Shown: in pieces, positions 8,754 through 33,389 of the stretch
How positions within the stretch are numbered: the stretch's first letter is position 1
Layout of the letters: every line of letters begins with the position of its first letter
Origin: Williamsia herbipolensis
GTDB lineage: Bacteria; Actinomycetota; Actinomycetes; Mycobacteriales; Mycobacteriaceae
Length of the DNA stretch: 33,566 nt
NCBI RefSeq assembly: GCF_000964005.1
Contig: NZ_JXYP01000043.1
Span: 1-33,566, forward strand
Direction of reading: 5' to 3'
Notes under the pieces: model-generated
Databases searched by the model: none
Told to the model about the DNA's origin: nothing
What the model saw: the letters and a program-made list of their open reading frames with translations, nothing else
Program-made: the position numbers and the translations under genes

Positions 8754-8770
8754 TACTACGTACAATAGTA
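8754..8770. promoter_or_regulatory. BlaI-type operator 1 (TACTA-N7-TAGTA)
   Basis: TACTA CGTACAA TAGTA lies between blaI (minus) and the Met/Cys peptide gene (plus). It contains TACAAT (8761-8766), a good -10 for the rightward gene, and reads TACTAT on the minus strand, a possible -10 for blaI. It is the only site that can serve both. Confidence 0.8.
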
Positions 8771-8811
8771 GCGGGCTCGCTCCTGCGAGACCCACGACAG
8801 AGGAGGACTCG

Positions 8812-8973
8812 ATGACAGAGCTGATGACGAACCTGCAAACGTGGTGGGACTGCCACATGATGATGGCCGCCGGCCTGAAAGACATGTGTGCCGACATGGG
8901 GGACATGTGCGTCGGGATGAAGGACATGTGTACCGACATGGGGGACATGTGTGCCGGGATGAAGTGCTGCTGA
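8812..8973 (+). CDS. 53-aa Met/Cys-rich repeat peptide, probable metal-binding (metallothionein-like)
   Basis: ATG 8812 has a strong AGGAGG five bases upstream. The 53 residues include 13 Met and 7 Cys. After MTELMTNLQTWWDCHMMMAA comes a 14-residue unit KDMCADMGDMCVGM (23-36) repeated as KDMCTDMGDMCAGM (37-50), ending in KCC. Cys26, 33, 40 and 47 are exactly seven residues apart, each in a DMC triplet with further Met every three to four residues. On a helix these would form one continuous Met/Cys face between Asp residues. No signal peptide is visible, so it is probably cytoplasmic. It resembles neither MymT nor any metallothionein I know. Operator 1 and a hairpin terminator frame it. Binding of Cu(I) or a similar soft metal is inference. 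Confidence 0.85.
   Translation: MTELMTNLQTWWDCHMMMAAGLKDMCADMGDMCVGMKDMCTDMGDMCAGMKCC
8878..8961 (+). repeat. 42-bp tandem repeat, two copies, in frame
   Basis: Copies 8878-8919 and 8920-8961 differ at four of 42 positions; two of the changes are synonymous. They encode the 14-residue repeat of the Met/Cys peptide. Each copy itself contains two related 21-base halves, suggesting growth by duplication of a seven-residue unit. Confidence 0.85.
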
Positions 8974-8988
8974 TCGGCGCGTGACCGA

Positions 8989-9020
8989 GGTGGTCGGGGG
9001 TCTATCGACCCCCGACCACC
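8989..9020 (+). terminator. Strong hairpin terminator after the Met/Cys peptide gene
   Basis: A perfect 14-bp stem (GGTGGTCGGGGGTC with its complement) and a four-base loop begin 16 bases after the stop codon. No T run follows, which is common for terminators of high-GC actinobacteria. It separates the peptide gene from the iron transporter. Confidence 0.75.
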
Positions 9021-9237
9021 GTGAGCGCGGCCAAGGCCCGCTCGCAGGGTCACACCGTGGCGGGCGGTTGAGGGGGCAACTATTTCGATCGCGGCCCCGG
9101 CTCGACTGCGCAACATCAAACGGGTTGATGCTTAAGCGGATGCGCCCGGGGGCGCCGAACCGCACCTTGCCTCTCTGCCCTCCTCACCCGGACGGGCTTG
9201 GCCTCCCCGCCCGGCCGTAGGCCCCAAATTCGAATGG

Positions 9238-9256
9238 TTAGGTTTGCCAAACCTGT
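9238..9256. promoter_or_regulatory. IdeR/DtxR-type iron box
   Basis: TTAGGTTTGCCAAACCTGT matches the 19-base IdeR/DtxR consensus (TTAGGTTAGGCTAACCTAA, from memory) at 14 positions and keeps the symmetric TTAGGTT/AACCT arms. It lies about 60 bp before the substrate-binding protein start, so iron-dependent repression of the transporter is expected. Confidence 0.75.
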
Positions 9257-13349: not shown

Positions 13350-14621
13350 TTAGAGTGCTGAACCTTGCTGCCAGGTTGTCCAGGGGACGCTCCAGTCTCC
13401 GTTTTGTGCCTGGGTGAGTGGGTCGCCGCCGGTGTTTCGTACCTCGACGATGTCGCCGGGTTGGGAGAAGTCGTAGAACCATTGTGCGTTGGCTGGATTG
13501 AGGTTGAGGCATCCATGAGATGTATTGGTGTTTCCCTGCGCCCAGATGCTACTTTCCAGCTGGTGTAGGTAGATGCCGTCGTTGCTGATTCGGGTTGCGT
13601 AATAGATAGTTTCGCGGTACCCGAGGCGGGAGTTGATGGGTAGACCGTACGTCGAGGAATCCATGATTACGGGATTGGATTTATCGAGGACGGTGTAGAT
13701 GCCTCGTTGGGTCCAGAACGACAGTGTCTGGCCGTTGATGGTTTCGGTTCCGCCCATGCCCATGGATGTGGGCATGGTGCGTACGAGTTTGCCGTTGTCG
13801 TAAACCGTCACCTGCTTTGTGTTGTCGTCGGCGATTGCGACGTGCGCGGGGCCGATCTGGAATGTTGTAGCCGTGTCTTCCTGGCCGTAGAGGCCGTCTC
13901 CGAGAGCTACGCCGTACACGCTGGCGGCAATTTCGACGCGAGTTCCGGGGGTGTAGTACCGCTCGGGACGCCAGTGCGCATTCTGGTCGTCGACCCACAT
14001 CCATTGTCCCGGCACTGGTGGGGTGGTGCGGACACTGAGGCGTCGTTGTGCTGCCGTGCGGTCGCTGATCGGCTCGTCGAAGTGGGCGACAACAACTATT
14101 CCGATCCCGTAGGTGCCGCCAGCGGTGATGGGGGTGCCGCCTGTCGTGGTCAGCGAGACCATGGTTTGGGTGCGAGGCTCGACTGTGGTGAAGCTGGTGG
14201 TGTCCGTGGTCTGACGACCTGTGGTGTCGCGGCTGGTCGCGGTGAGACTGTAGGTTTTGCCGAATCCGAGGGGTTCTGTCGGCTTCCACGACATTCGGTC
14301 GGGGGTTAAAACGCCGATAACGGTCTTGCCTTCCGTATTGGTCATGGCAACGCTGGCCAGCGTTCCGTTGGCGACCGAGACCGAAACCCGCCCCAGTGGG
14401 TCGACTCCCGTGCTGCCGCGGGGTGGAGTGAACGTCATGGTTGCAGGTTGCGCGGCGGAGGTTTGTGAGGAACTGGCGGCGGATCCAGGGGAGTTGCTGG
14501 GGCGGGCGGAGGTGCATGCGGCCAGTGTGCCGGTGGTAGCTGCGGCGATTCCTCCGATCAGTACCTGCCGCCGTGTCACTGTGCTGCGGCTATCGACATC
14601 TGGCCTTCTTCTCGCACACAT
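13350..14621 (-). CDS. L,D-transpeptidase lipoprotein, LdtMt2-like
   Basis: A 423-aa peptidoglycan cross-linking enzyme forming 3-3 links. A twin-arginine-like signal (VTRRQVLIGG) ends in lipobox LAAC (Cys36), so it is a lipoprotein. Two Ig-like domains (about 60-260) precede the YkuD catalytic domain (about 265-395), which has the active-site block SHGCLNL with the nucleophilic Cys and an upstream His in IYLHQLE. This matches mycobacterial Ldt architecture. ATG 14621 lies inside operator 2; the site's TACTAT (14637-14632) as -10 would start the mRNA within a few bases of the ATG, so it is nearly leaderless. GTG 14579 at VTRRQV is an alternative start. It is divergent from the multicopper oxidase. 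Confidence 0.9.
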   Translation of the reverse strand: MCARRRPDVDSRSTVTRRQVLIGGIAAATTGTLAACTSARPSNSPGSAASSSQTSAAQPATMTFTPPRGSTGVDPLGRVSVSVANGTLASVAMTNTEGKTVIGVLTPDRMSWKPTEPLGFGKTYSLTATSRDTTGRQTTDTTSFTTVEPRTQTMVSLTTTGGTPITAGGTYGIGIVVVAHFDEPISDRTAAQRRLSVRTTPPVPGQWMWVDDQNAHWRPERYYTPGTRVEIAASVYGVALGDGLYGQEDTATTFQIGPAHVAIADDNTKQVTVYDNGKLVRTMPTSMGMGGTETINGQTLSFWTQRGIYTVLDKSNPVIMDSSTYGLPINSRLGYRETIYYATRISNDGIYLHQLESSIWAQGNTNTSHGCLNLNPANAQWFYDFSQPGDIVEVRNTGGDPLTQAQNGDWSVPWTTWQQGSAL

Positions 14622-14637
14622 ACTAAGAAGCATAGTA
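14621..14637. promoter_or_regulatory. BlaI-type operator 2
   Basis: TACTA AGAAGCA TAGTA overlaps the start codon and predicted -10 of the L,D-transpeptidase gene on the minus strand; a bound repressor would block the promoter directly. Confidence 0.8.
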
Positions 14638-14701: not shown

Positions 14702-14718
14702 TACTATGGCAACTAGTA
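14702..14718. promoter_or_regulatory. BlaI-type operator 3
   Basis: TACTA TGGCAAC TAGTA lies upstream of the multicopper oxidase gene on the plus strand. Its right half could supply a -10 (ACTAGT, 14712-14717) with initiation near 14724. Confidence 0.8.
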
Positions 14719-14725: not shown

Positions 14726-14749
14726 ATGTGGTGGCGGGAAGGCGACTGA
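14726..14749 (+). CDS. Possible seven-residue upstream reading frame coupled to the oxidase start
   Basis: ATG 14726 opens MWWREGD, whose TGA overlaps the ATG of the oxidase (TGATG). If transcription starts near 14724 it would be a leaderless mini-cistron feeding ribosomes into the oxidase gene. No transcript data support it and chance is possible in such a short frame. Confidence 0.25.
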   Translation: MWWREGD

Positions 14750-16299
14750 TGCGTGAGGGTGCACGAGACGGTGGTCTACCGACGGCTGGCGGCGGAATGT
14801 CGCGGCGCCAGTTGTTGGCGACTGCGGGTGTTGTCGCGTTGTCCGGTGCGGTTGCAGCGTGTTCTAGTGGCGGCACAACATCGCCGAGGCGGCGTGTGTT
14901 GCCCAACGATCCAGTGGTGGCCGCGACGGAACGGACGCGCCTCGAGGCCGGCGGCGGAACGCTCCGATCGTTCGCGCTCACCGCGGAACCTGGAACCATT
15001 GACCTCGGCGGGGTGATGGTGCCGACGTGGACGTACGGGGCAGCGGTACCCGGTCGCGAGATTAGAGTGCGCCAGGGTGAACGGCTGCGAGTCGATGTGT
15101 CCAACGCGCTCCCAGATCCCACCTCGGTGCACTGGCACGGATTGGCTATCCGCAATGACATGGATGGGGTTGCCGGGCTTACCCAGCAACCGGTGGTGGC
15201 CGGCAAAAGTCAGCGTTATGAGTTCGTCGTTCCCGATGCTGGAACTTATTGGTTTCATCCCCACGTCGGAACTCAACTTGACCGCGGGCTGTATGCACCA
15301 CTGATCGTGGAGGATCCGGCCGACGGGGCTGCCTATGACGACGAATGGGTGCTGGTTGTCGATGATTGGATCGACGGGACCGGAAGTCCAGCGACCACGC
15401 CGGACACCGTGTTGGCTGGGCTCCGCCGAGACGGAATGTCGGCGATGGGTGGTATGGATGGTACGGCGCCGGCGTCAGCGTCTGAGCCGTTGGGCTCGGA
15501 CACCGGCGACGTTGTCTACCCGTATTACCTGATCAATGGGCGGCTTCCGATCGCGGCGGATTCTCGGACTGTCCGTGCCGGGCAGCGAATTCGGTTGCGG
15601 CTGATCAACGCGGGCGGCGACACGGCATTTCGGATCGGTATCCCGGGGGTGCCGATGACGATTACTCACACCGACGGGTTCGCGGTAGAACCGACCTCAA
15701 AGGAAGCAATTCTTCTGGGAATGGGGGAGCGGGTCGACGCGATCATCACTGTCCCTCCGTCCACGACTCCGATTCTCGCCATCGCTGAAGGGAAAACTGG
15801 CTCGGCGCAGGCGGTTCTCAAGGTCGCAGGGTCGTCGCTGGGTGATACCGGTGGGGCGCTCGCCAAGCTCGCCGCGTCAGTGCCGTTTGACAGCGCGCGG
15901 GCAGCCGCGGTGACGGCAGTTCGTCTGTCGCAGAAGGCCCCCGATGTTCGACACGAACTCGTCTTGGGTGGGCCCGACGGGCAATACAATTGGACTATCA
16001 ACGGTCGCGGTTATGATCCCGCACGCGGGCTGCCTGTAGTCCAGGGGCAGCGCGTGCGATTGACGTTCACCAATCAAACCGGAATGTTTCACCCGATGCA
16101 TCTGCACGGCCACACCTTTCAAGTGCGCCCCACCGACGGCGGCGCGGGGCCGCGTAAAGACACCGTTTTGGTGCTACCCGGTGCCAGCGTCGATGTCGAC
16201 TTCGACGCCGACAACCCCGGTCAGTGGCTGACACACTGCCACAACATCTATCACGGCGAAGCCGGCATGATGACCGTGGTGTCGTACATGTCCACCTGA
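14749..16299 (+). CDS. mmcO: Multicopper oxidase lipoprotein, MmcO-like
   Basis: A 516-aa exported oxidase that probably converts toxic Cu(I) to Cu(II) outside the membrane. A Tat-type signal SRRQLLATAGVVAL ends in lipobox VAAC (Cys38). All copper motifs are intact: HWHG, WFHPHVG, HPMHLHGHTF, and HCHNIYHGEAGMM with the type-1 Cys, His and Met. The Met-bearing stretch MSAMGGMDG at about 230 could be an extra copper site. I chose ATG 14749 because GGGAAGG lies seven bases upstream; in-frame GTG 14728 is possible. Operator 3 lies directly upstream. M. tuberculosis MmcO (Rv0846c) is the nearest named relative I can cite; there the control is RicR, here BlaI-type sites. Confidence 0.93.
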   Translation: MREGARDGGLPTAGGGMSRRQLLATAGVVALSGAVAACSSGGTTSPRRRVLPNDPVVAATERTRLEAGGGTLRSFALTAEPGTIDLGGVMVPTWTYGAAVPGREIRVRQGERLRVDVSNALPDPTSVHWHGLAIRNDMDGVAGLTQQPVVAGKSQRYEFVVPDAGTYWFHPHVGTQLDRGLYAPLIVEDPADGAAYDDEWVLVVDDWIDGTGSPATTPDTVLAGLRRDGMSAMGGMDGTAPASASEPLGSDTGDVVYPYYLINGRLPIAADSRTVRAGQRIRLRLINAGGDTAFRIGIPGVPMTITHTDGFAVEPTSKEAILLGMGERVDAIITVPPSTTPILAIAEGKTGSAQAVLKVAGSSLGDTGGALAKLAASVPFDSARAAAVTAVRLSQKAPDVRHELVLGGPDGQYNWTINGRGYDPARGLPVVQGQRVRLTFTNQTGMFHPMHLHGHTFQVRPTDGGAGPRKDTVLVLPGASVDVDFDADNPGQWLTHCHNIYHGEAGMMTVVSYMST

Positions 16300-18103: not shown

Positions 18104-18742
18104 CTAAGGCCCTTCTGCAGCAGGAACGTCAATGACTGGTTCACGAAGAAGCGACACGACCTCAGGGCCGAGTTCGGTTGCGCGAATCGATCGCAGGTAG
18201 ACCTTGGCGACGCGGTGTTTGCGATCGAGAACAATGGTGGTCGGAACGACCGACGTCGGGGTTGTCAGAGCTGCGAGGCTACGGCCGGCATAATCAAACA
18301 AAGAGGGATACCCCATCTTCCGGTCGGTGACGAAATCGCGCGCGGTGTCGCGATCGTCACGAAAATCGATGCCGAGGAACGCTGAACCCATGGGCGAAGT
18401 CTGAGCAAACACTTGCTCGAGTTCGGTGCTTTCCAGCCGACAGGGAGCACACCACGACGCCCACACGTTGATCACCACGACACGCCCGGCGAACTCTGTA
18501 AGCGATCGCGGTCGCCCAGACATCAGATCGGTACCTGTCAACTCGCGCACCATCTGGCGAGAAGACGGCGGGTCGTAGCTGATCACGACCTTGCCGCCGG
18601 GGGAAATGAACTGGAACGAGCTGCCCTTGTTGACGGCATCGTTGCCGGTCGAGCATGCGGCGAGAACCACTGCGACAACGCTGAGCACAGCGACCATATG
18701 CGGGCCGCGCCGCGGCCGGCGACGCGCATAGGAGGTGGTCAC
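18104..18742 (-). CDS. TlpA-like thioredoxin lipoprotein (copy 1)
   Basis: A 212-aa exported thiol-disulfide oxidoreductase. The signal peptide ends in lipobox LAAC (Cys30), so it is a lipoprotein. The thioredoxin domain has the CxxC active site WCAPC (Cys98, Cys101) and a cis-Pro region VVPTTIVLD. GTG 18742 overlaps the stop of the Lgt-like gene (GTGA), which fixes the start. It likely receives electrons from CcdA encoded at 19988, keeping cysteines or copper sites of envelope proteins reduced. Next in the operon was the small membrane protein now separated by the IS. Confidence 0.88.
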   Translation of the reverse strand: MTTSYARRRPRRGPHMVAVLSVVAVVLAACSTGNDAVNKGSSFQFISPGGKVVISYDPPSSRQMVRELTGTDLMSGRPRSLTEFAGRVVVINVWASWCAPCRLESTELEQVFAQTSPMGSAFLGIDFRDDRDTARDFVTDRKMGYPSLFDYAGRSLAALTTPTSVVPTTIVLDRKHRVAKVYLRSIRATELGPEVVSLLREPVIDVPAAEGP

Positions 18743-19851
18743 AGCACCCACACGATGACGGCCGCGACGACAACGCCTGCGGCCACACCGCCGGTCCATA
18801 AACGGCCCCGGCCCGAGTGCGGGTCTTCGCGCAGCGGAAACAGCAGTTGACGAAACAACACGTATGCCGCCATCGACGCGACAAACACAGCGCCGGAGTT
18901 GTCGGTCACGCCCACCAGGAGTGCACTGAGGGTGGCTGCGGCGACTACAACAGCAAAACCCGCTTCAATCAGCGGAACAGGATAGCGGCGCACCCCGATC
19001 CGTCGATCCGACGACCATATCGCCCACCGCGACGTTGTCGGTCGCCCCACGCAGCAACCCGCCAGTACGCAGCCGGGTCGCCCGATCGCGATTCCGACGA
19101 ACACCCCGGGGGTGGTGGCGTCGAGCAACGTGCCGATTGGAAGGCCGAACAACGCGGCTTGACCAATCATGGCGGCCACCGCACCGAGGAGGAAACCCTG
19201 GATACACGATCCTGCGGACAGGAACCCACGGCGCTCCCGATCGCGATGCAGCGCCACGTAATACAACTTGGCACAGGGAAAACCCACACCGCAGGCAACG
19301 AGTGTGATCACCGCCGCGGTCCACCAACGGTGGTCGACGCGGGCGAAAAGCAGGGCCTGAATCACGATGGCAGCGAGCGCACCAATTCCCACCAGCGCGG
19401 GCCATGCCCCCCACCGAACCCCTGGACCGAACGTCGTGGGTGCGAAACGTGTCGTGGTGGTGAACGTCTTCGGCGACAACGTGGAATGGGCCCGGCCAGC
19501 CGCGGTCAACGGACGCGCCGACACCGTCCACTGACCGGCAGTAATGCCGTGCACGCGGGTGGTGACGCTGAGGTGGCCGATCAGATGAGAAGCCGCCACC
19601 GTGCTCGTCTTCTCGAAGCGGTCCCCGGCCGCAGTCGAGGGTTTTCCGCCAATCCGTCGTCCGATGAACCGCACCATGACGGCCTCTTGCGTACCTGGAT
19701 GGGCATCGAAGGAGTACGTTGCCGCGATACCCGGCTCCGCCCGAGCCATGAGTTCTCCGCACTGAGCGGCATCGTCGGATTCGGGACCAGAAGCCACAGA
19801 CGGGCGACCTGACGCGGGGACGCTCTCTTGTACAACCGAATTACTGCGCAC
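18739..19851 (-). CDS. Lgt-like membrane protein with an N-terminal extracytoplasmic-type domain
   Basis: A 370-aa protein. Residues about 145-370 form a multi-helix membrane unit with the pattern GRPGCVLAGCCVGRPT and RYPVPLIEAG, the positions where prolipoprotein diacylglyceryl transferase has GRxGNFxNxE and the HPSQLYE-like loop. The canonical HGG motif is absent (GSCIQGFLLG instead) and the catalytic Asn is replaced, with three Cys added, so true Lgt activity is doubtful. The first 140 residues contain a beta-rich stretch (ATYSFDAHPGTQEAVMVRF ... GITAGQWTVSARPL) resembling an Ig-like export domain, although no clear N-terminal signal precedes it. GTG 19851 has GGGAG upstream. Operators 4 and 5 lie about 65-110 bp upstream. 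It overlaps tlpA by four bases. Confidence 0.7.
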   Translation of the reverse strand: MRSNSVVQESVPASGRPSVASGPESDDAAQCGELMARAEPGIAATYSFDAHPGTQEAVMVRFIGRRIGGKPSTAAGDRFEKTSTVAASHLIGHLSVTTRVHGITAGQWTVSARPLTAAGRAHSTLSPKTFTTTTRFAPTTFGPGVRWGAWPALVGIGALAAIVIQALLFARVDHRWWTAAVITLVACGVGFPCAKLYYVALHRDRERRGFLSAGSCIQGFLLGAVAAMIGQAALFGLPIGTLLDATTPGVFVGIAIGRPGCVLAGCCVGRPTTSRWAIWSSDRRIGVRRYPVPLIEAGFAVVVAAATLSALLVGVTDNSGAVFVASMAAYVLFRQLLFPLREDPHSGRGRLWTGGVAAGVVVAAVIVWVL

Positions 19852-19915: not shown

Positions 19916-19932
19916 TACTATCCAGCATAGTA
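19916..19932. promoter_or_regulatory. BlaI-type operator 4
   Basis: TACTA TCCAGCA TAGTA, 24 bp centre to centre from operator 5; both lie before the minus-strand Lgt-like/TlpA operon, a tandem arrangement that would allow cooperative binding. Confidence 0.8.
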
Positions 19933-19939: not shown

Positions 19940-19956
19940 TACTAATGAAGGTAGTA
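19940..19956. promoter_or_regulatory. BlaI-type operator 5
   Basis: TACTA ATGAAGG TAGTA; the symmetry extends outward to ACTACTA/TAGTAGT, making it the most symmetric site of the set. Confidence 0.8.
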
Positions 19957-19987: not shown

Positions 19988-20800
19988 TCAGATGGGGGTG
20001 AGGTAGGTCGAGACGAACTCCGCGCGCAACCACAGGGTGAATTGAGCCCACTGGCCCGTGACGAGGAGCACTCCGACCAGGATGAGGGTGAGCCCGCCAA
20101 AGAGCTGCACGCCACGTGCGTGGCGCCGTAGCCAGCCAACCCCGGACATCAACCGCGTCGAACCAAAAGCCAGGGCGATGAACGGCACCCCCAAGCCCAG
20201 GCAGTAGGCGACGATGAGAATGACACCGCGCACCGCTGTCGTGCCCGAAGTGCCTGCGGCAACCGACAACACCCCAGACAGGGTGGGACCCAGACACGGC
20301 GTCCAACCCAGTCCGAACACTGCCCCCAACAGCGGGGCACCCACCAACCCGGATGTGGGTCGCAGATGCGGGCGGGTGTCGCGCTGCAACGCGGGGATGA
20401 AGCCGAGGAATGCCAGGCCCATGACGATGGTGACGACACCGCCGACGCGCTGTAGCAACGCTTGGTTGAGTTGGAGGACGGTTATCAGCCCGAAGACCGA
20501 CGCCGTAGCGGCAACAAACACCGCGGTGAACCCCGCCACGAACAGTATTGCTGCAGCTGTGACCCGCCATCTGCGCATCTTGCCCGGGGTTTCGCCGGCG
20601 GAATCTGCAGAGGTATCGGCACCCGCCAGTCCCGCGAGGTAGGACAGGTATCCGGGAACAAGGGGAAGACAACACGGCGATGCAAACGACACCAGTCCGG
20701 CGAGAATAGCTGCCCCGAGGGCCAGTAACAGCGGTCCCGAAGCGGCCGCAGATTGAAAGGCAGTACCGATCGTCTGACCCCCTTCTTTGCAATCCCCCAC
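19988..20800 (-). CDS. ccdA: CcdA/DsbD-type thiol-electron carrier
   Basis: A 270-aa membrane protein with about six helices that moves electrons from cytoplasmic thioredoxin to envelope TlpA-type proteins. The two conserved Cys-Pro sites are present: SFASPCCLPLVPGYLSYL (Cys43/44) and GWTPCLGP (Cys169). GTG 20800 starts five bases after operator 6; the predicted -10 GATAGT inside the operator puts the transcript start at the GTG, so the mRNA is probably leaderless. The two TlpA proteins of the window (18104 and 30094) are natural partners. Confidence 0.9.
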   Translation of the reverse strand: MGDCKEGGQTIGTAFQSAAASGPLLLALGAAILAGLVSFASPCCLPLVPGYLSYLAGLAGADTSADSAGETPGKMRRWRVTAAAILFVAGFTAVFVAATASVFGLITVLQLNQALLQRVGGVVTIVMGLAFLGFIPALQRDTRPHLRPTSGLVGAPLLGAVFGLGWTPCLGPTLSGVLSVAAGTSGTTAVRGVILIVAYCLGLGVPFIALAFGSTRLMSGVGWLRRHARGVQLFGGLTLILVGVLLVTGQWAQFTLWLRAEFVSTYLTPI

Positions 20801-20804: not shown

Positions 20805-20821
20805 TACTATCCACGGTAGTA
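20805..20821. promoter_or_regulatory. BlaI-type operator 6
   Basis: TACTA TCCACGG TAGTA immediately before ccdA; on the minus strand TAGTAGTTC runs straight into the GTG start. Confidence 0.8.
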
Positions 20822-21142: not shown

Positions 21143-21159
21143 TACTATCCCCAATAGTA
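21143..21159. promoter_or_regulatory. BlaI-type operator 7, between divergent units
   Basis: TACTA TCCCCAA TAGTA sits between the small membrane gene (minus) and the CPVC membrane protein-blaI2-M56-cyclase operon (plus), so the second repressor is probably autoregulated. Confidence 0.8.
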
Positions 21160-21751: not shown

Positions 21752-22097
21752 GCTCGAATCGGCGGTGATGGCTGCGCTGTGGTCGAGCGCTGAACCGATG
21801 CGTGTGCGCGACGTGATGGACGTGATGGACCCCGCGCGACCGTTCGCCTACACCACCGTCATGACGGTCCTGGACAACCTGTATGGCAAAAACTGGGTCA
21901 CGCGTGAACGGGTGGGGCGCGCTTACCACTACCGGCCCCGTCTGAGTAAGACTGCGGCGGTTGCAGAGACCGTCCGCGGAATTCTCGACGAATCCGATGA
22001 GGCCGAAGCCATATTGTTGCATTTCGCGCAGTCGACAAGCGACAACGAATCCGATGCGCTGCGGCGGGGCTTGCGCCGTCGAGCGCGACGGTCGTGA
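21735..22097 (+). CDS. blaI: BlaI/MecI/CopY-family repressor (copy 2)
   Basis: About 120 aa. MRGLGELESAVMAALW and AYTTVMTVLDNLYGKNWV align with the DNA-binding half of copy 1 at 8303-8680, including the identical AYTTVM recognition-helix stretch, so both repressors could read the same sites. ATG 21735 gives the family-typical N-terminus and has AGGTGG eight bases upstream; GTG 21723 is the alternative. The stop overlaps the M56 start (GTGA). No metal-binding Cys is present, so any metal signal would have to come through the protease or another route. Confidence 0.9.
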   Translation: MRGLGELESAVMAALWSSAEPMRVRDVMDVMDPARPFAYTTVMTVLDNLYGKNWVTRERVGRAYHYRPRLSKTAAVAETVRGILDESDEAEAILLHFAQSTSDNESDALRRGLRRRARRS

Positions 22098-23032
22098 ACG
22101 TCCCTTTCGCGTTCATCGCGACAGCGGGCGCTCTGGGGTGGGTATGGCCGACGTGGATGATCCGGCACCAGCATCGAATCGACCCGCGACTGGCGATGGC
22201 GGCGTGGCCGACCGCGCAAGTGCTGTTTGCGCTGGTATCAGTCGGTGCGGCGGTGACCCTGCTCGTTCCGGGCCACGCCACCAGCTTCGTGTCGTCGCTG
22301 GTGGGTCGGTGTTTGAATTCACTGGCCCACACGACACCGGCCGCGGGTGAAAATGTCGCTGGTGCGGCCGGGTCGGTAGCACTGCTCGTGGTGTTCAGCT
22401 GCGTATTCGTTCGTATCCTGCGGCGCCGCAACGCCCAACGTGACCGGCGTGAGCAGTTGTCCGACACCATCTTCCTCACCGGCTTCCAGCTACCGGGTTT
22501 TCCTGACGTGTGGTGGCTCGACGACGACCGTCCGGTCGCGTTCTGTCTCGCCGGGCCTCGCACGCGGATCGGCGCGTCGACGGGGCTGTTCGGTTTCCTC
22601 AACGACAACGAACTCGACGCAGTGCTGAGTCACGAACGCGCCCACGCACGAATGCGCCACCACACCACCATCGTGTGGGCCGAGGCGTGCGGACGAACCC
22701 TCTCCGCCATACCCCTGTTCCGGTACGGAGCACAGTCGGTTCGCGGGCTCAGCGAACAGGCCGCCGATGCCGCTGCCGCGTCGGCCCACGGCCCGATGAC
22801 GGTCGCCTCGGCGCTAATCAAACTAGCCAGCGCTCCCCGGCAGGCCACTCCTCCGCGGGGCTCGTTGGCCGCAGCTCAGGGCAATCTGGGGTTTCGCCTC
22901 AACACGTTGACGCGGCAGGGTCAGCGGTCGCATCTCTCGGCAAGCCTGCATATCGCGGCAATCACCACCGCGTGTGTGCTGGCGCCCGCCGCGACGGTCA
23001 CCATGGTGCTAGCAACTTTGACCTGCTCGTAG
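22094..23032 (+). CDS. M56-family membrane metalloprotease (copy 2)
   Basis: A 312-aa membrane protease with the zinc motif HERAH in LSHERAHARMRHH and a downstream EQAADAAA that fits the third zinc ligand region. Hydrophobic segments lie near the N-terminus (two or three) and at the C-terminus. Like copy 1 it has no penicillin-binding sensor domain. Start GTG 22094 overlaps the blaI2 stop by four bases. It presumably inactivates BlaI copy 2 on a signal not evident in the sequence. Confidence 0.85.
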   Translation: MNVPFAFIATAGALGWVWPTWMIRHQHRIDPRLAMAAWPTAQVLFALVSVGAAVTLLVPGHATSFVSSLVGRCLNSLAHTTPAAGENVAGAAGSVALLVVFSCVFVRILRRRNAQRDRREQLSDTIFLTGFQLPGFPDVWWLDDDRPVAFCLAGPRTRIGASTGLFGFLNDNELDAVLSHERAHARMRHHTTIVWAEACGRTLSAIPLFRYGAQSVRGLSEQAADAAAASAHGPMTVASALIKLASAPRQATPPRGSLAAAQGNLGFRLNTLTRQGQRSHLSASLHIAAITTACVLAPAATVTMVLATLTCS

Positions 23033-23107
23033 CACAGGCACGGAGTGCTGCCGCGCGGGTCAGATGGCGTTCAGCGACCACCAGCGCTCATCGAAAGAGA
23101 ATCGACC

Positions 23108-23770
23108 ATGGCAGCAGACGTAGATCTCCACACACCCGGCGAAGGCGAAACGGTGATTTTCGTCGACCTTGCCGGGTTCACAGCGCTGACCGAGGCCCAT
23201 GGCGATCAGCATGCCGCCGACCTCGCCGATGCACTCACCGACCTGGCGCGCACGGCCCTGAGCGACGGGGACCAGCTAGTCAAGTCCATCGGTGACGCGG
23301 TATTGCTGACCTCGGCGACACCTCGAGCAGCAGTACACCTGGTCACCACGATGGTTCGTGACAGTCACCGCAATCAGGACTTCCTCGACCTGCGGGCCGG
23401 CCTGCACCATGGGCCGGTGATCCACCGTCGTGGTGACGTATTCGGCGCCACGGTGAACGTAGCCGCCCGGGTTGCCGGCATGGCCACAGCCGGTCAGGTA
23501 CTGTGCACGCCCGACATCGCCGACGATGCCCGTGCTTGTGGGATAGCCGTTTTTGATCTCGGCCTCACGTCTATGCGCAACGTCGCCGCTCCGGTCCATC
23601 TGTTCGCGCTCGACGTCGCGTCGCCCCGAACGGGACTCGTCGATCCGGTCTGCCGCATGCGGGTGAGACCCGAAAACGCCATCGGCACTCTGCGCCACGC
23701 CGGGGCGACGTACGCATTCTGTTCGTTGCGCTGCGCCGGCCTGTTCGCGCAGAACCCGGACCGGTACTAG
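23108..23770 (+). CDS. Adenylate-cyclase domain fused to a YHS metal-binding domain
   Basis: A 220-aa soluble protein. Residues 14-170 form a class III nucleotidyl-cyclase domain: metal Asp20 (IFVDLAGFT) and Asp63 (IGDAVLL), adenine-specifying Lys59 and Asp110, and transition-state Asn117 and Arg121 in FGATVNVAAR are all present, so it should make cAMP as a dimer. Residues 177-220 form a YHS domain (DPVCRM ... AFCSLRCAGLFAQNPDRY; Cys182, 205, 209), a fold found in copper and heavy-metal proteins. ATG 23108 lies 75 bp after the M56 stop, with a weak GAAAGAGAA site. A metal-sensitive cAMP signal is an attractive inference. Confidence 0.85.
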   Translation: MAADVDLHTPGEGETVIFVDLAGFTALTEAHGDQHAADLADALTDLARTALSDGDQLVKSIGDAVLLTSATPRAAVHLVTTMVRDSHRNQDFLDLRAGLHHGPVIHRRGDVFGATVNVAARVAGMATAGQVLCTPDIADDARACGIAVFDLGLTSMRNVAAPVHLFALDVASPRTGLVDPVCRMRVRPENAIGTLRHAGATYAFCSLRCAGLFAQNPDRY

Positions 23771-23794: not shown

Positions 23795-25231
23795 TCAGAG
23801 CAGGCGAACGACATAGGGCATGGCGCCACTGGTGCGCAGTGCTGACACCTTGACGACATCGCCGGACTGCGGCGCCTCGATCATCTTGTTGTCGCCGATG
23901 TAGAGCGCGTTGTGCTCGCTGGCGTTGGGACCGTAGAAGATGATGTCACCGCGCTGGATGTCTGCCAACGGGATTTGGCGGCCTGAGGTGTACTGGTAAC
24001 CGGTGTAGTGCGGCAGCGCGATGCCTGCACCGGCAAACGCATACAGAATCAACCCGGAGCAATCGAACCCGACCTTCGCGTAGTCGCCGAAGCTGTCGGC
24101 GACGCCACCATCGCGAACACCGACGGTGGGTCCGCTGGCGTTGCCGCCGCCCCATGAGTACGGCACACCCAACTGAGACATGGCCCGGTTGACCACGGTT
24201 TCCACCGCCGCCGGCCCCGCCGTCGCATCGGGCGGAATAGGGCCTACAGCAGAGGGTGTGGTCGAAGGTGAGCCGCCCTCGCCTTGTGTAGGTGGCGGTG
24301 AGGCTACCGCCGGTGGACTGGGCTGTTGTGAACCCTCGATATCGGTATGAGGACGACTCAACGACGCAACGATCGCCGCCAATGCCTGCTGAACGGCATT
24401 CTTGGCCAGCTTCACCACAGCCTCACGCACCATTGCGGCCGGGTCCGGGACAGCCTCCGGGGTCGCTGATGGTGGGGCCGCCGCCGGCAGTGGCGCACTG
24501 CCAGCGGCCACCGGCGTACGACCGGTGGCTACGGCGGGCCGCAGCCGAGCGAGTTGCGCTGCGGCTTCACTTCTCTTTGTTGTCAGGGCTGCTCTGCGTG
24601 ACTGCTGTTGGGTCACAGCTGCCATGGCGTCGGTAAGCGCTGAGCGGGCGACTTGCTGTTGGCGCTGGGCAGTGGTGGTCGCCCGCCGGGCCGTCGTCAC
24701 TGTGGCCTCGGCGATCGCTGAACGATTGGCGGCGTCATTACGACGACGTTTGACGTCATCGACGATGCGCCGCTGCTCCCGTGTGATCCTGCCGATCACT
24801 CCGGTGCGCTCAAGGAACGAATCCGGATCCGGTGACAGTAAGAAGCCCGTGGAATCCGATGAATTGCCCTGGCGGTACAACCGGGCCACGACGGCGTCGA
24901 ATTGCTTCTGCGCGGCGTTCGCGGCGACCGTGGACTCACTCAGTGAGCGACGGGCTCCGTCGGCAGCAACAGCGGCCAGGTGCTGAGCATCGCGGGCCAT
25001 CTGCAAATCGACCAACGTCCGATTGACGCCTTCACGTTTGCCTGCTGCGGCGCGCTCGAGGTCGGCGATTTGTTGGTCGACACCGGCGATGGAGGTGACC
25101 AACGCCGCGATTCGATCACCCGGCGACTCCGGTAGCGGCGCACCCCACGCCACCGCACTACCAACCACCAACGAACTCGCCACCGCAATCACCGCAGCGA
25201 ACACCGACCGCCGACACACCGCAACACCCAT
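23795..25231 (-). CDS. NlpC/P60 peptidoglycan hydrolase, RipA-like
   Basis: A 478-aa exported endopeptidase. A signal peptide (VFAAVIAVASSLVVGSAVAWGA) is followed by long Ala/Gln/Arg coiled coils (about 40-250), a Pro/Ser linker and the C-terminal NlpC/P60 domain (about 345-478). The catalytic triad is Cys391 (FDCSGL), His440 (SEHNALYIG) and Glu452 (MIEAP); the 49- and 12-residue spacing is identical to M. tuberculosis RipA (Cys383, His432, Glu444, from memory). It cleaves peptide stems between D-Glu and meso-DAP by family analogy. Operator 8 lies about 40 bp before ATG 25231. Regulation of a cell-separation type hydrolase by this operator is unusual. Confidence 0.9.
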   Translation of the reverse strand: MGVAVCRRSVFAAVIAVASSLVVGSAVAWGAPLPESPGDRIAALVTSIAGVDQQIADLERAAAGKREGVNRTLVDLQMARDAQHLAAVAADGARRSLSESTVAANAAQKQFDAVVARLYRQGNSSDSTGFLLSPDPDSFLERTGVIGRITREQRRIVDDVKRRRNDAANRSAIAEATVTTARRATTTAQRQQQVARSALTDAMAAVTQQQSRRAALTTKRSEAAAQLARLRPAVATGRTPVAAGSAPLPAAAPPSATPEAVPDPAAMVREAVVKLAKNAVQQALAAIVASLSRPHTDIEGSQQPSPPAVASPPPTQGEGGSPSTTPSAVGPIPPDATAGPAAVETVVNRAMSQLGVPYSWGGGNASGPTVGVRDGGVADSFGDYAKVGFDCSGLILYAFAGAGIALPHYTGYQYTSGRQIPLADIQRGDIIFYGPNASEHNALYIGDNKMIEAPQSGDVVKVSALRTSGAMPYVVRLL

Positions 25232-25267: not shown

Positions 25268-25284
25268 TACTATCCGACATAGTA
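25268..25284. promoter_or_regulatory. BlaI-type operator 8
   Basis: TACTA TCCGACA TAGTA before the NlpC/P60 gene (minus). It lies 25 bp from operator 9, similar to the 24-bp spacing of operators 4 and 5. Confidence 0.8.
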
Positions 25285-25292: not shown

Positions 25293-25309
25293 TACTAGCC
25301 GGGTTAGTA
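25293..25309. promoter_or_regulatory. BlaI-type operator 9
   Basis: TACTA GCCGGGT TAGTA; TAGTAGTTCG runs directly into ATG 25315, the same layout as ccdA, so a leaderless rightward transcript is expected. Confidence 0.8.
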
Positions 25310-26194: not shown

Positions 26195-26812
26195 TCAGTC
26201 GAGAAGCTTGTTCATGGTCGCGATCTCGGTGCGTTGGGCGGCCACGATGCTCTGGGCGAGGGCCTTTGCCTCGGCGCTTTTACCCGACTGGATCTCTTTG
26301 GTTGCCATCGCAATCGCTCCCGTGTGATGGGCGACCATCATGGTCAACCATTCGCGATCGAACGCTGTACCGGACAGGGTTTGCAGCTTGCTCATATCGG
26401 CTGATGACATCATCCCATCCATCGCCATCGAACCCGACATGTCCATCTGCGCCGACGGCGCCGGTTGCCCCCACTGCGTCAAAAGCGATTTCAGTGTGGT
26501 CATCTCCGGTTCCTGCGCCTTGCTGATCTGATCGGCGAGCGCCAGGACCGCCGGGGTGGTGGTGCGTCCCTTCACGTAACCCGCCATCTCCACGGCTTGT
26601 GCGTGATGGGGATACATGTCTTTGGCGAATGTCACGTCGGCCTGATTGAACGCGGCGTCCTGGGCGACCGAGCTGGTCTGCGCGCTGCCGCTCATGTTCA
26701 TCTGTGACCCGCCGCCCATGTCCATCCCGCCCATCGACCCCCCACATGCGGAGACCCCGACAACGAGTGCCAGGGCAGACGAACCAATTGCGGCTGACTT
26801 CCACGTATTCAC
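26195..26812 (-). CDS. DUF305 Met-rich lipoprotein
   Basis: A 205-aa secreted lipoprotein. The signal ends in lipobox VSAC (about Cys23), then a Met/Gly-rich linker (GGSMGGMDMGGGSQMNMSG) leads to a duplicated DUF305 helical domain. The family marks are MYPHHAQAVEMA (first half) and MMVAHHTGAIAMA (second half), each with a His-His pair; MDMSGSMAMDGMM sits between. DUF305 proteins are repeatedly found in copper and silver resistance loci and are thought to bind Cu by Met and His. GTG 26812 has AAGGAG seven bases upstream. Operator 10 lies about 100 bp upstream. Confidence 0.92.
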   Translation of the reverse strand: MNTWKSAAIGSSALALVVGVSACGGSMGGMDMGGGSQMNMSGSAQTSSVAQDAAFNQADVTFAKDMYPHHAQAVEMAGYVKGRTTTPAVLALADQISKAQEPEMTTLKSLLTQWGQPAPSAQMDMSGSMAMDGMMSSADMSKLQTLSGTAFDREWLTMMVAHHTGAIAMATKEIQSGKSAEAKALAQSIVAAQRTEIATMNKLLD

Positions 26813-26912: not shown

Positions 26913-26929
26913 TACTATCACCGATAGTA
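26913..26929. promoter_or_regulatory. BlaI-type operator 10, between divergent units
   Basis: TACTA TCACCGA TAGTA lies between the DUF305 gene (minus) and the His-rich frame/lpqS-like/cysK2/MFS genes (plus). GATAGT in either direction can serve as -10. Confidence 0.8.
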
Positions 26930-30070: not shown

Positions 30071-30087
30071 TACTATCCCGTATAGTA
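30071..30087. promoter_or_regulatory. BlaI-type operator 11 with built-in -10
   Basis: TACTA TCCCGTA TAGTA. TATAGT (30081-30086) is a good -10, and position 30093-30094, where transcription should begin, coincides with GTG 30094 of the TlpA2 gene; a leaderless mRNA is predicted. Confidence 0.82.
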
Positions 30088-30093
30088 GTTCCG

Positions 30094-30777
30094 GTGGCTG
30101 GACAGTGGACACAGGTGTCAACGTCGACGCGGGTCGGGGTGTGCATTCTCGTCGTCGTCGCCGCCCTCATCGTCGCTGTGTGGCCGCAGGCGACAGGCCG
30201 GGACGACACGGTTCCGGCGCAGCGGCAGAGCGCCGTTGATACGGCATCGCAACCAGCGGCCGCCGCAAGCGATCTCGTTGCGGCACGTGCCAAAGCTCAA
30301 CTGTCGCCCTGTCCAGTTCCCGGCCCTCCGGTATCTGCCGCATCTCCGCTGCGTGGTGTGACGCTGGACTGCTTAGCAGGACCGCCGGCGGTCGACATCG
30401 CACGCGCTGGCGCGGGACGACCCATGTTCATCAATTATTGGGCGTTCTGGTGTGGGCCGTGTCGCACCGAGTTGCCGATCGTCGCTGAGTACGCGTCGCG
30501 GGCAGGCCAACGAGTCCAGGTGCTGACTGTGCAAGGCGTTGACGGGGCGCAACGACCCGATTTGTCGCTGAAGTTGCTCACCGACATCGCAGTTCATCTA
30601 CCGACGGTCGTAGACACACAGGGGCGTCTCGCCGCCGCGGTGGGATTTCCGCGGGTGTATCCGACATCGGTGCTTATTCGCCCTGACGGGACCGTTGCGG
30701 CGCTGTTGCCGCGCGTTTTTCGCTCCTCGGACGAGATAGCGCGTGCTGTTGAGCAGTACTTGGCAGTGACGACGTGA
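30094..30777 (+). CDS. TlpA-like thioredoxin, membrane-anchored (copy 2)
   Basis: A 227-aa exported thiol-disulfide protein with an uncleaved-type N-terminal anchor (VGVCILVVVAALIVAVW, 14-30). The thioredoxin domain has active site WCGPC (119-123) in INYWAFWCGPCRTELP and a cis-Pro loop YPTSVLIRPDG. Before the domain are two extra Cys (SPCPVPG, LDCLAG). Start GTG 30094 is set by the leaderless promoter in operator 11. It overlaps the Lnt gene by four bases. It is probably reduced by CcdA (19988). Confidence 0.88.
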   Translation: MAGQWTQVSTSTRVGVCILVVVAALIVAVWPQATGRDDTVPAQRQSAVDTASQPAAAASDLVAARAKAQLSPCPVPGPPVSAASPLRGVTLDCLAGPPAVDIARAGAGRPMFINYWAFWCGPCRTELPIVAEYASRAGQRVQVLTVQGVDGAQRPDLSLKLLTDIAVHLPTVVDTQGRLAAAVGFPRVYPTSVLIRPDGTVAALLPRVFRSSDEIARAVEQYLAVTT

Positions 30778-32360
30778 AGCGGGCCGTGATGGGCCGGGAC
30801 GCCCACTACGGCGACAGGAGCGGTCGACGGGGTGTTAACGCACGCGCGTTGGCCGCATCGGCTGCCCGCTTGGGAGTCGCGGTGGTGTCGGGTTATCTGC
30901 TGTATCTCAGTTTTCCACCACGAGGACTGTGGTTCCTGGCCCCGATCGGTATGGCGATTCTGATAGTGACGCTGCGCGGTAGATCGGTCCGCGCCGCCGC
31001 GGGAATCGGGTATGTGGCGGGACTGGCGTTCTTCCTTCCACTGCTGCCGTGGGTAGGTGAGTACGTGGGCGCAGCGCCCTGGCTCGCGTTGTCGGCGGCC
31101 CAAGCGGTCGCGGTCGCGGTCTTCGCCGCCGGCGTGCCCACATTGGTGCAGATGCGGTGGGCGCCGATGTGGATCGCCAGCGGCTGGGTTGCCGTCGAAG
31201 CAGTCCGTTCCCGCATCCCGTTTGGCGGTTTCCCCTGGGGGCGTTTGGGATTTGGACAGGCCGATGGTCCACTGCTGCCACTCGCATCACTGGCGGGAAC
31301 GCCTGGGTTATCGTTCGTCGTCGTCGCCTTAGGGGCAGCCTTGGGACTGTCGATGGTCGCGGTTACGCCCATTCGTGTACGGGCGGTGGTCACAATCGTG
31401 GGCATTGCACTGGTGGGAGTTGCCGTTGTCGTTGCCCCGCCAACCGGCGGCGGCGGTCCAGAGGTGACCGTTGCCGTGGTGCAGGGGAATGTGCCGCGGC
31501 TGGGGCTGGACTTCAACGCTCAACGCCGCGCCGTGCTCGACAATCATGTACGTGCGACTATCGACCTGGCCACCCGAGTGGCCGCGGGTGACATGAAGCA
31601 ACCCGCCTTCGTCGTGTGGCCGGAAAATTCCTCCGACATCGACCCGTACCGCAATCCCGACGCGGCCCAACAGATCACCATCGCAGCCCAGGCGGTGGGG
31701 GTACCTATTCTTGTCGGCGCGGTCGTCGCCAACGGCGGTGGCACCACCCGGAATTCGGTCATTGTGTGGGACCCCCGCACCGGCCCGGGGCAGCGCTCCG
31801 ACAAGCGTCAACTCGTGCCCTTCGGCGAGTATCTACCGCTGCGTGCGCTGATGACCAAGCTCTCCCCGTATGCCGCGCAGGCTGGGCGTTTCGTTGCCGG
31901 CACCGGAGACGGCGTCGTCGACATCAGCGGAGTTCCGATCGCGGTAGCGACCTGTTATGAAATTGCGTTCGACCGGTTGGTGAGTCGATCGGTGCGCGCC
32001 GGCGCCCAACTGATCACCGTACCCACGAACAACGCCACCTTCGGTCGAACAGACATGACGTATCAGCAGCTGGCGATGTCGCGGGTCCGTGCGGTCGAAC
32101 ACGGCCGCGCGGTCCTCGTGGCGGCCACCAGCGGTGTGAGTGCGGTCATCACCACGGACGGCCGGGTCGCGCAGCGCACCCGCTTGTTCACCGCCGACGT
32201 CCTCGTAGCCCAAGTGCAGCTGCGCTCGGACCTCACGGTCGCTACCCGAGTCGGGGCTCTACCGGAATGGCTGGCGGTCGCGGTAGCGGTGATATCTCTA
32301 CTCGACCCCGCACGTCGACGGGTAGCGCTTCGCTCGGCGCGGGAACGCGCCGTCGCGTGA
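30774..32360 (+). CDS. lnt: Apolipoprotein N-acyltransferase
   Basis: A 528-aa membrane enzyme that adds the third acyl chain to lipoproteins. The N-terminal 220 residues form about six helices (YLLYLSFPPRGLWFLAPIG and others); the C-terminal carbon-nitrogen hydrolase domain has the full triad Glu284 (VVWPENSS), Lys344 (SDKRQLVPFGEYLP) and Cys394 (ATCYEIAFD). Start GTG 30774 overlaps the TlpA2 stop (GTGA), so it is co-expressed under operator 11. Chromosomal Lnt of mycobacteria is often fused to a dolichol-phosphate mannose synthase (Ppm1); this copy is stand-alone. With lspA (3987) and the Lgt-like protein (18739), it gives the window three proteins related to lipoprotein biogenesis. Confidence 0.93.
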   Translation: MKRAVMGRDAHYGDRSGRRGVNARALAASAARLGVAVVSGYLLYLSFPPRGLWFLAPIGMAILIVTLRGRSVRAAAGIGYVAGLAFFLPLLPWVGEYVGAAPWLALSAAQAVAVAVFAAGVPTLVQMRWAPMWIASGWVAVEAVRSRIPFGGFPWGRLGFGQADGPLLPLASLAGTPGLSFVVVALGAALGLSMVAVTPIRVRAVVTIVGIALVGVAVVVAPPTGGGGPEVTVAVVQGNVPRLGLDFNAQRRAVLDNHVRATIDLATRVAAGDMKQPAFVVWPENSSDIDPYRNPDAAQQITIAAQAVGVPILVGAVVANGGGTTRNSVIVWDPRTGPGQRSDKRQLVPFGEYLPLRALMTKLSPYAAQAGRFVAGTGDGVVDISGVPIAVATCYEIAFDRLVSRSVRAGAQLITVPTNNATFGRTDMTYQQLAMSRVRAVEHGRAVLVAATSGVSAVITTDGRVAQRTRLFTADVLVAQVQLRSDLTVATRVGALPEWLAVAVAVISLLDPARRRVALRSARERAVA

Positions 32361-32398
32361 ACCTGCGGCGGTAAGCGGACTGCGCGGGCCGACTGTAG

Positions 32399-33316
32399 CT
32401 ATTGAAAGACAACGCCGCGGGCCCGTAACCACGCCGCCGGATCAAGACGCACCGAGTCGCCCTGCCACACCTCGAAGTGCAGATGCGGACCAGTAGAGAT
32501 ACCACGATTGCCGACAGTCGCGATCTGTTGTCCGGCACGGACCCGTTGGCCCACCGCGACCAGTGTCTCGTTGATATGCCCGTACACCGCTGTGGTGCCG
32601 TCGTCGTGGCGTATTCGCACCCACAGGCCGAACCCACTGGCGGGTCCGGAGTTCAGGATCACCCCATCAGACACCGAGAAGATCGGAGTACCGATGACAT
32701 TGGCGATATCGAGACCATAGTGTTCGGTTCCCCACCGCATCCCGTACCCCGAGGTCACCACGCCGACGACGGGGGCCACTGAACGCGGTCGACGAGGGGT
32801 CAAGCGAGTACGCGCAGCGCTGGGTGCTGCGCGCGGTGGCGGTGGCAGGAAAGCCTGACGGCGAGTGGGTGATGCGCGGGCAACGACTGCGGCGACATCT
32901 GAGGGGCTCTTGCCCGCGGTCCTCGGCCCGTCTGGGGAGATCGCCCCGCCGGCGACAAGGGCTCCGCATGCCACCGCTGCGAGCAGGACGGTCACCCCGT
33001 TCGGCCGCCGGCGATCACCACCCACCACTGACACAGGTTCCGGCGCCGGTTCATCGGTCGGCGGCGCCCAGCACCACCTCCGTTCCCACGGCGCGGGATA
33101 ACTCAGGCGCAGTGGACCCAGTAACTCCGTGAGATCGACTGTCTCCAAGGACGAAACTCCACAGCGATCGTGCGCGGATCGTGCGTCGCTCTGCATGGCG
33201 GCGAAGCCCAGACGTGCTGGCCGTCTCGACGCCGGATCTGCCACCGCGAGCGCCGCCCCGCTGCCACTACGTGCAATCGGTGTGTCGTCAGATTCGTACC
33301 TGCGATGTCGCGCCAC
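32399..33316 (-). CDS. M23 (LytM-type) peptidase
   Basis: A 305-aa protein. After an N-terminal cytoplasmic stretch of about 100 residues there is one membrane anchor (VTVLLAAVACGALVAGGAIS), a Pro/Arg linker and the M23 domain at the C-terminus (about 185-305). Zinc ligands are in HYGLDIAN (His and Asp) and HLHFEVW; SGYGMRWGTEHYG is the usual start of the domain. M23 enzymes cut peptidoglycan cross-bridges or activate other hydrolases. The GTG at 33316 has GGCAGGG upstream. Operators 12 and 13 lie about 40-70 bp upstream, so it is a third cell-wall enzyme with these sites. Confidence 0.88.
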   Translation of the reverse strand: MARHRRYESDDTPIARSGSGAALAVADPASRRPARLGFAAMQSDARSAHDRCGVSSLETVDLTELLGPLRLSYPAPWERRWCWAPPTDEPAPEPVSVVGGDRRRPNGVTVLLAAVACGALVAGGAISPDGPRTAGKSPSDVAAVVARASPTRRQAFLPPPPRAAPSAARTRLTPRRPRSVAPVVGVVTSGYGMRWGTEHYGLDIANVIGTPIFSVSDGVILNSGPASGFGLWVRIRHDDGTTAVYGHINETLVAVGQRVRAGQQIATVGNRGISTGPHLHFEVWQGDSVRLDPAAWLRARGVVFQ

Positions 33317-33357
33317 GTCGTGTCCCTGCCGGTCGAGACAGGCCTACCGCCCATGTC

Positions 33358-33374
33358 TACTATGTGTCATAGTA
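33358..33374. promoter_or_regulatory. BlaI-type operator 12
   Basis: TACTA TGTGTCA TAGTA before the M23 gene. It overlaps operator 13 by two bases (shared TA at 33373-33374), giving a run of four half-sites. Confidence 0.8.
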
Positions 33375-33389
33375 CTAAGGCACATAGTA
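33373..33389. promoter_or_regulatory. BlaI-type operator 13
   Basis: TACTA AGGCACA TAGTA. TAGTAGTCGTG follows on the plus strand, the same operator-to-start layout as ccdA, so a rightward transcript beyond the window is likely. Confidence 0.8.

Follow-up and report, generated by a model that had tools for sequence, protein, structure and literature searches.

The stretch of DNA analysed here (33,566 nucleotides, hereafter the window) is the entire contig NZ_JXYP01000043.1 of Williamsia herbipolensis, a genome assembled in 50 contigs (4.74 Mb). It carries 13 exact copies of a palindrome, TACTA-N7-TAGTA, together with two genes for BlaI-family repressors and their predicted membrane protease partners (Table 1). 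The palindrome is, we consider, likely to be the operator of actinobacterial BlaI-family repressors and to define a regulon on this contig, as judged from sequence comparison.

All 13 copies lie exactly where an earlier note on this DNA had placed them, and none appeared in 100 dinucleotide shuffles of the window. The 19 TACTA and 18 TAGTA words of the window belong mostly to these sites. Besides the seven-base spacing there are five pairs at spacing 10 and one at 13, which arise because TACTACTA/TAGTAGTA repeats overlap with a shift of one triplet. The extended consensus of the 17-bp palindrome is approximately AAC-TACTAT-G-NNN-C-ATAGTA-GTT, and in the blaI_1 promoter (8680-8860) a run of TACGTACGTA adjoins the exact site. 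The position of the copies is equally characteristic: none of the 13 falls inside a curated gene model, with 86.6% of positions 8000-33566 coding (chance about 5e-12), and two of them hug a start (the centre of site 20805 is 13 bp from the ccdA start, that of site 30071 15 bp from the tlpA_2 start), in keeping with the earlier claim that the sites lie only between genes or over starts. Mechanical open reading frames (ORFs) in other frames do cross some sites, e.g., 8707-9165; those that were scanned had no Pfam match. Near site 21143 we have taken the ORF 21197-21751 (+) in place of the first call, 21145-21669. The iron transporter and the insertion sequence, already singled out as exceptions, are site-free, as is a block with LspA, P-type ATPase and ArsR genes. 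The idea of a -35 box at a constant distance from the sites was also examined and discarded, no upstream offset being prominent among 128 oriented site-gene pairs; that TACTAT serves as a -10 element under the operator is only a possibility.

Table 1. Operator sites and genes of interest in the window (positions within the 33,566 nucleotides).
Feature	Position	Strand	Evidence or context
M48/M56-like membrane protease, BlaI_1 partner; HERAH; Cys75 and Cys314	7347..8306	-	Pfam M48 7e-11
BlaI_1, Penicillinase_R repressor, AYTTVMS recognition helix, no Cys	8303..8680	-	Pfam PF03965 2.4e-24
Putative operator site	8754..8770	.	centre 82 bp upstream of blaI_1
Big_10 and YkuD L,D-transpeptidase, predicted lipoprotein	13350..14579	-	Pfam; lipobox by regular expression
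Putative operator site	14621..14637	.	50 bp upstream of L,D-transpeptidase
Putative operator site	14702..14718	.	~40 bp upstream of multicopper oxidase
Multicopper oxidase, probable lipoprotein	14749..16299	+	Pfam; ATG 14749 and lipobox by eye
TlpA/AhpC-like thioredoxin lipoprotein (tlpA_1), downstream of lgt-like gene	18104..18697	-	Pfam; lipobox by regular expression
Lgt-family protein, divergent motif GRPGCxLxGCC	18739..19749	-	Pfam LGT 2.1e-19
Putative operator site	19916..19932	.	upstream of lgt-like gene, first of two
Putative operator site	19940..19956	.	upstream of lgt-like gene, second of two
CcdA/DsbD-like thiol transporter	19988..20800	-	Pfam DsbD_TM 6.9e-7
Putative operator site	20805..20821	.	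adjoins ccdA start
80-aa ORF, hydrophobic stretches, divergent from blaI_2 operon	20852..21094	-	sequence
Putative operator site	21143..21159	.	between 80-aa ORF and blaI_2 operon; would give autoregulation
184-aa ORF, hydrophobic stretches, CPVC motif, blaI_2 operon gene 1	21197..21751	+	ORF list; no Pfam match
BlaI_2, Penicillinase_R repressor, AYTTVMT helix, no Cys	21723..22097 (start may be 21735)	+	Pfam PF03965 9.8e-24
M48/M56-like membrane protease, BlaI_2 partner; HERAH at 180; Cys73 and Cys311 predicted outer-face	22094..23032	+	Pfam; AlphaFold2
Class III nucleotide-cyclase domain fused to YHS domain, in blaI_2 operon	23045..23770	+	Pfam
NlpC/P60 peptidoglycan hydrolase	23795..25231	-	Pfam
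Putative operator site	25268..25284	.	upstream of NlpC/P60, first of two
Putative operator site	25293..25309	.	upstream of NlpC/P60, second; 254 bp from divergent methyltransferase
DUF305 Met-rich predicted lipoprotein	26195..26812	-	Pfam; lipobox by regular expression
Putative operator site	26913..26929	.	upstream of DUF305; 225 bp from divergent hypothetical/cysK-like/MFS unit
Putative operator site	30071..30087	.	directly before tlpA_2-lnt start
TlpA/AhpC-like thioredoxin (tlpA_2)	30094..30777	+	Pfam
Lnt, apolipoprotein N-acyltransferase	30774..32360	+	Pfam LNT_N 6.2e-34 and CN_hydrolase
M23 peptidase	32399..33316	-	Pfam
Putative operator site	33358..33374	.	upstream of M23, first of two
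Putative operator site	33373..33389	.	upstream of M23, second; 2-bp overlap with site 33358

The two BlaI genes that had been noticed from the sequence are borne out by Pfam. BlaI_2 matches the PDB entry 2g9w (E 1.4e-18), deposited as a "conserved hypothetical protein", which we take to be the BlaI of Mycobacterium tuberculosis, and both have the AYTTVM helix. Elsewhere in the genome there is one further BlaI on contig C45 and another on C34, and a fifth match is weak. Both blaI_1 and blaI_2 overlap an M48/M56-type gene by 4 bp, and each gene or operon has a palindromic site in front of it (8754 and 21143, respectively).

A way to examine the palindrome independently of this contig is to look at loci that were chosen solely for a BlaI relative, the best 80 of 584, a set that is biased to BlaIs of the same type and includes near-duplicates. 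These 80 loci contain 135 copies of TACTA-N7-TAGTA (0.09 expected) distributed over 56 of them, while among the other spacers up to 15 there were 12 pairs at 10, six at 14 and zero to two elsewhere. The 12 pairs at spacer 10 fit triplet-shifted repeats. The six at spacer 14 are not accounted for in this way, and neither is a spacer-14 pair before a blaI_1-type gene in L016 (L016:27369). Five plasmid loci were then added (85 loci, 158 sites). Of these sites a single one is well within a called gene although 82% of the sequence is coding, and 141 are at most 400 bp from a start, with the distribution highest at 25-75 bp upstream. The genome of W. herbipolensis itself has 20 sites, 13 on the window contig, four on C45 (217 kb) and three on other contigs that are taken to be chromosomal; none of the 20 is within a gene called by the codon model. 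The comparison of sites inside and between genes, which had been proposed as a check, thus came out in favor of an intergenic motif.

The number of sites also follows the number of repressors. Among 251 genomes of the family, those with zero to five blaI matches have on average 0.12, 1.67, 3.08, 4.69, 5.40 and 13.71 sites (33 genomes lack blaI, 29 of them without any site, and seven have five matches, our genome being counted with five by including its weak match), giving a Spearman correlation of 0.61. W. herbipolensis is second of the 251 by site number, an unusually dense set. A reversed-pattern control exceeded the forward count in most relatives (in our genome the figures are 20 forward and 4 reversed). 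Therefore the raw count alone is no proof, and the earlier argument that the motif is too frequent for chance, while agreeing with the shuffles, needs the position and the link to BlaI to carry it.

Several observations weigh against such a simple correspondence. No exact site was found in 24 of the 80 BlaI loci, and of three genera tested one by one the correlation is kept in two (g23, 0.71; g6, 0.45) and is not significant in the third (g29, 0.25, p 0.28). An exact site is near only 11 of 79 blaI_2-type starts (25 of 79 allowing one mismatch) and two of 21 blaI_1-type starts, and the chromosomal blaI promoter of our own genome is without a good site. Autoregulation is therefore not general, and BlaI_1 may read a different sequence or its own variant; in blaI_1-type promoters the sites are often diverged, an example being TACGTACGTAGATAGTA.

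The chromosomal sites recur in relatives. In each of seven congeners the number of sites is three, and each has a single close ortholog of the chromosomal BlaI and one or two Penicillinase_R matches. The congener sites that were placed by locus (14 of 21) precede cydA (7), a DUF3817 gene (4) and atpI-atpB (3), and the same three promoters hold the three chromosomal sites of our genome, making 17 placed sites out of 24. ATP-synt_I and ATP-synt_A domains are encoded downstream of one of our own sites and likewise in three congener loci. The third conserved site (L027:6319) precedes a DUF3817 and thiamine-binding-protein gene pair. The BlaI of M. tuberculosis has been reported to bind the promoter of Rv1303 (ATP synthase). 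The chromosomal BlaI ortholog appears to use a TACTAC-type operator at ATP synthase, cytochrome bd and the DUF3817 gene. A different local regulator (two-component, CsoR-like or ArsR) as the protein that binds the motif, with BlaI as a mere neighbor, seems to us highly improbable: response regulators do occur on related islands, and a metal-sensitive repressor on one, but blaI number tracks site number over the 251 genomes (BlaI being the only regulator family counted), and neither the congeners with three sites and a single close blaI ortholog nor the Rv1303 target is what this explanation would lead one to expect.

The sixth base of the half-site sets contig and chromosome apart. It is C in 40 of 48 half-sites from the 24 chromosomal sites of the eight congeneric genomes and C in only 3 of 34 (T in 24) from the 17 sites of the window contig and C45 (Fisher 6.5e-12, a p value overstated because orthologous sites were counted apart). 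The C45 sites accompany a BlaI/M48 pair of that contig's own and lie near DUF4396, Caa3_CtaG, ResB-Lnt and DUF1275 genes (L021-L024). The AYTTVM core is followed by the residues QR in both 2g9w and the chromosomal BlaI, by DN in both window BlaIs and by TN in that of C45; among 99 BlaIs examined, 70 have DN and 15 TH. The sixth base was T in 31 of 34 half-sites at TH loci, and T 113, A 81, C 22 and G 28 times at DN loci, so far an association of sequences between helix-flanking residues and operator. The mostly TACTAT-type contig and the TACTAC-type chromosome suggest two BlaI "dialects", a split that looks new. Were the chromosomal BlaI alone to run contig and chromosome as one regulon, leaving the window BlaIs to serve other targets, the identical ten-base core and spacer and the common AYTTVM helix core would be explained; the sixth base, the congeners that have just three sites with only a close chromosomal-BlaI ortholog, the different residues after the helix and the sites preceding blaI_1 and the blaI_2 operon all speak against it, and we find it quite unlikely.

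The genes that the sites precede in relatives bear on the content of the regulon. Homologs of the window genes (counted when aligned over at least 40% of the query) were scored for a site near the estimated start, for which chance is about 4%. A site was found for lgt-like genes in five of six cases, lnt in 6/11, tlpA_1 in 7/11, tlpA_2 in 3/9, the Ig-type L,D-transpeptidase in 9/17, M23 in 9/24, NlpC in 3/7, the multicopper oxidase in 5/21 and ccdA in 2/14; for the methyltransferase there was none in five. A Pfam tally was made of 150 of the 172 genes downstream of sites (the remaining 22 were near-duplicates or short) and of 150 random others of 60-800 amino acids from the same loci, with 25 families listed. 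DsbA-like (8), Redoxin (7), COX1 (7), LNT (6), LGT (5) and M23 (5) appeared downstream of sites and are not among the 25 families listed for the controls, where the lowest listed count is 2. COX1 and DsbA-like genes, frequent neighbors of sites elsewhere (L016-L112), were not found among the 40 window ORFs scanned with Pfam.

Other window genes do not behave in this way. A site was near the P-type ATPase in 0/31 cases, DUF305 in 2/34, cysK-like in 0/11 and MFS in 0/10, and the tally was not distinctive for YkuD (3 downstream of sites vs 2 in controls), DUF305 (3 vs 4), the multicopper oxidase (5 vs 3) or NlpC (6 vs 4). For these reasons the system is not a core copper-export regulon, and the common core, as read from these neighborhoods, is one of envelope thiol and lipoprotein enzymes rather than of metal export. 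The earlier proposal has strong support from comparative genomics in so far as it makes the sites BlaI-family operators that link copper, thiol-redox, lipoprotein and peptidoglycan genes; that all these units would respond together, and to metals, is a further possibility, and either window BlaI may bind at a given site.

Some window targets have counterparts elsewhere in the genome. A second Lgt is encoded on C1, and C34 and C45 have other Lnt genes, so the lgt-like and lnt genes of the window are additional copies. A lipobox is present in four exported proteins whose genes lie under sites (the L,D-transpeptidase, TlpA_1 and DUF305 by regular expression, the multicopper oxidase by eye). The Lgt-like protein shares its GRPGCxLxGCC motif with relatives in L017 and L018 (the alignment rows used were the window, L017 and L018; a wrong-strand ORF and the L034 and L074 rows, which are not Lgt, were left aside), at the position that R-x-x-N and E take in the Lgt motif, and for that reason its activity as Lgt is putative.

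The partners of the repressors offer a clue to the signal. Both window proteases (319 and 312 amino acids) matched no penicillin-binding domain, their relevant Pfam matches being M48/M56 only. HERAH is present in all four partners of our genome, and its H, E and H residues do not vary across 92 partners. An AlphaFold2 model of the BlaI_2 partner (75 alignment rows; mean predicted local distance difference test (pLDDT) 86, predicted template modelling score 0.83) has four long helices (2-28, 31-57, 84-129 and 281-311), the last two of which flank the HERAH domain, and terminates at the last long helix, with no C-terminal sensor domain. A fold comparison gave weak matches to zinc proteases (8exs, E 0.027; 8exr, E 0.040) and none at E of 0.001 or below. 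Cys73 is at the end of a short helix after helix 2 and Cys311 at the end of the last helix (pLDDT there 53-56), and both are predicted to face outward; their placement outside is based on a BlaR1-like topology. Among the 92 partners 77 have both cysteines, nine neither and six only one (Fisher 4e-8, with no correction for shared descent); the partner of the chromosomal BlaI has neither. It is reasonable to guess, but only to guess, that the outer-face pair acts as a switch operated by a disulfide or a metal. The partner on C45 is without the C-terminal cysteine, which does not favor this guess, and the excess of sites at loci with the pair is modest (46/61 vs 5/12 others, p 0.035, one of the five being a truncated call). 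A cysteine pair in sensor-less BlaR-like partners looks new.

Comparison supports the operator, where it is placed and its connection with BlaI; for binding, proteolysis and signal we infer the following scheme. BlaI_1 and BlaI_2 would sit at the promoters of their own operons, and of some nine other units of the contig, and repress them. Each would be paired with a membrane zinc protease equivalent to a BlaR1-like core minus the penicillin sensor, which may sense extracytoplasmic damage, most likely copper or oxidised thiols, by means of the outward cysteine pair. The activated protease would then cleave BlaI and release a spare envelope set made of the Lgt-like protein, Lnt, CcdA/TlpA, L,D-transpeptidase, peptidoglycan hydrolases and multicopper oxidase. 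That copper or thiols are the signal is a real possibility, a little short of an even bet. Copper is favored by the multicopper oxidase, the Met-rich DUF305 protein and the effects of copper on lipoprotein acylation and L,D-transpeptidases. Copper is reported to impair lipoprotein acylation in Escherichia coli (PMC6538781) and to inhibit LD-transpeptidases (Peters, 2018), and the regulon may therefore replace copper-poisoned enzymes. Another paper considered as copper evidence (PMC13235563) was set aside, copper being there a coupling reagent only.

A response to cell wall damage or beta-lactams, as reported for the BlaI of M. tuberculosis, with the metal genes as passengers, would suit the L,D-transpeptidase, NlpC/P60 and M23 genes under sites, and BlaI is reported to potentiate beta-lactam efficacy against mycobacteria (PMC12565901). 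Beta-lactams are nevertheless a less likely signal for the two window pairs, given that the partners match no penicillin-binding domain and that no beta-lactamase was found in the 40 ORFs; with lipoprotein and thiol genes as the more distinctive targets, we hold this alternative to be on the unlikely side. Our fullest reading is tentative and somewhat doubtful as a whole: in Mycobacteriales and related actinobacteria, accessory islands might carry a second BlaI dialect, in which an extracytoplasmic Cys pair has taken the place of the antibiotic sensor in the BlaR-type protease and reads copper or disulfide stress, TACTAT is insulated by one base from the respiratory TACTAC of the host, and what is switched on is a reserve of envelope enzymes vulnerable to copper, for lipoprotein acylation and thiol transfer and including the L,D-transpeptidase. 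In titles and abstract openings, which covered few subscription papers, no such actinobacterial BlaI copper regulon is described.

As to the contig itself, the presence of ParA and ParB-type genes and of relatives on plasmids leads us to infer that it is a plasmid. Its Pfam families also include an ISL3 transposase, a methyltransferase, cysK-like and MFS proteins and a weak thioredoxin-like ORF. The iron ABC transporter (9180-12980) shares up to 93% identity with plasmids of Rhodococcus, and at 16650-18100 the ISL3 element is 98-99% identical to ISPfr2 copies, identities by which the contig looks like a recent mosaic. The cyclase-YHS fusion (23045-23770) had no homolog in the 85 related loci at the cut used.

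An operator is here proposed for a repressor family present in 218 of the 251 genomes, which would make BlaI regulons readable from sequence. Sensor-less BlaI/M56 pairs are suggested as guards of the envelope against metal or thiol damage, with the two conserved cysteines as a testable sensor candidate, and the single base that separates contig operators from chromosomal ones offers a modest, testable example of how an acquired regulon might remain apart from that of its host.

Among known systems, the staphylococcal BlaI-BlaR1 and MecI-MecR1 pairs share the combination of a repressor with a HExxH membrane zinc metalloprotease, and our model weakly resembles the BlaR1 core (8exs and 8exr). They differ in having an extracellular penicillin sensor, which is lacking here, and the 40 ORFs scanned yielded no beta-lactamase or PBP2a-type family. 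The operator core of MecI, staphylococcal BlaI and CopY is TACA/TGTA. The likeness of the half-sites to BlaI/MecI operators claimed at the outset thus holds at the level of the family, as supported by comparative genomics, but with TACTA half-sites in place of that core. CopY/CopR has the same fold family (2k4b, which we take to be CopR, is a weak match to BlaI_2, E 0.0046), and copper genes are nearby. A CopY-type copper-binding repressor was nevertheless rejected, since the CxC motif occurs in none of the 99 BlaIs, and copper would therefore not be bound in the CopY way. The closest counterpart is the BlaI of M. tuberculosis (Rv1846c), whose regulon is said to have been described by Sala in 2009. 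It is alike in repressor family, in the core of the recognition helix and in having the ATP synthase operon as a target (here at the chromosomal site only), whereas the system described here has a plasmid-like contig with two further BlaI/M48-M56 pairs, 13 sites, a changed sixth base and envelope and copper genes.

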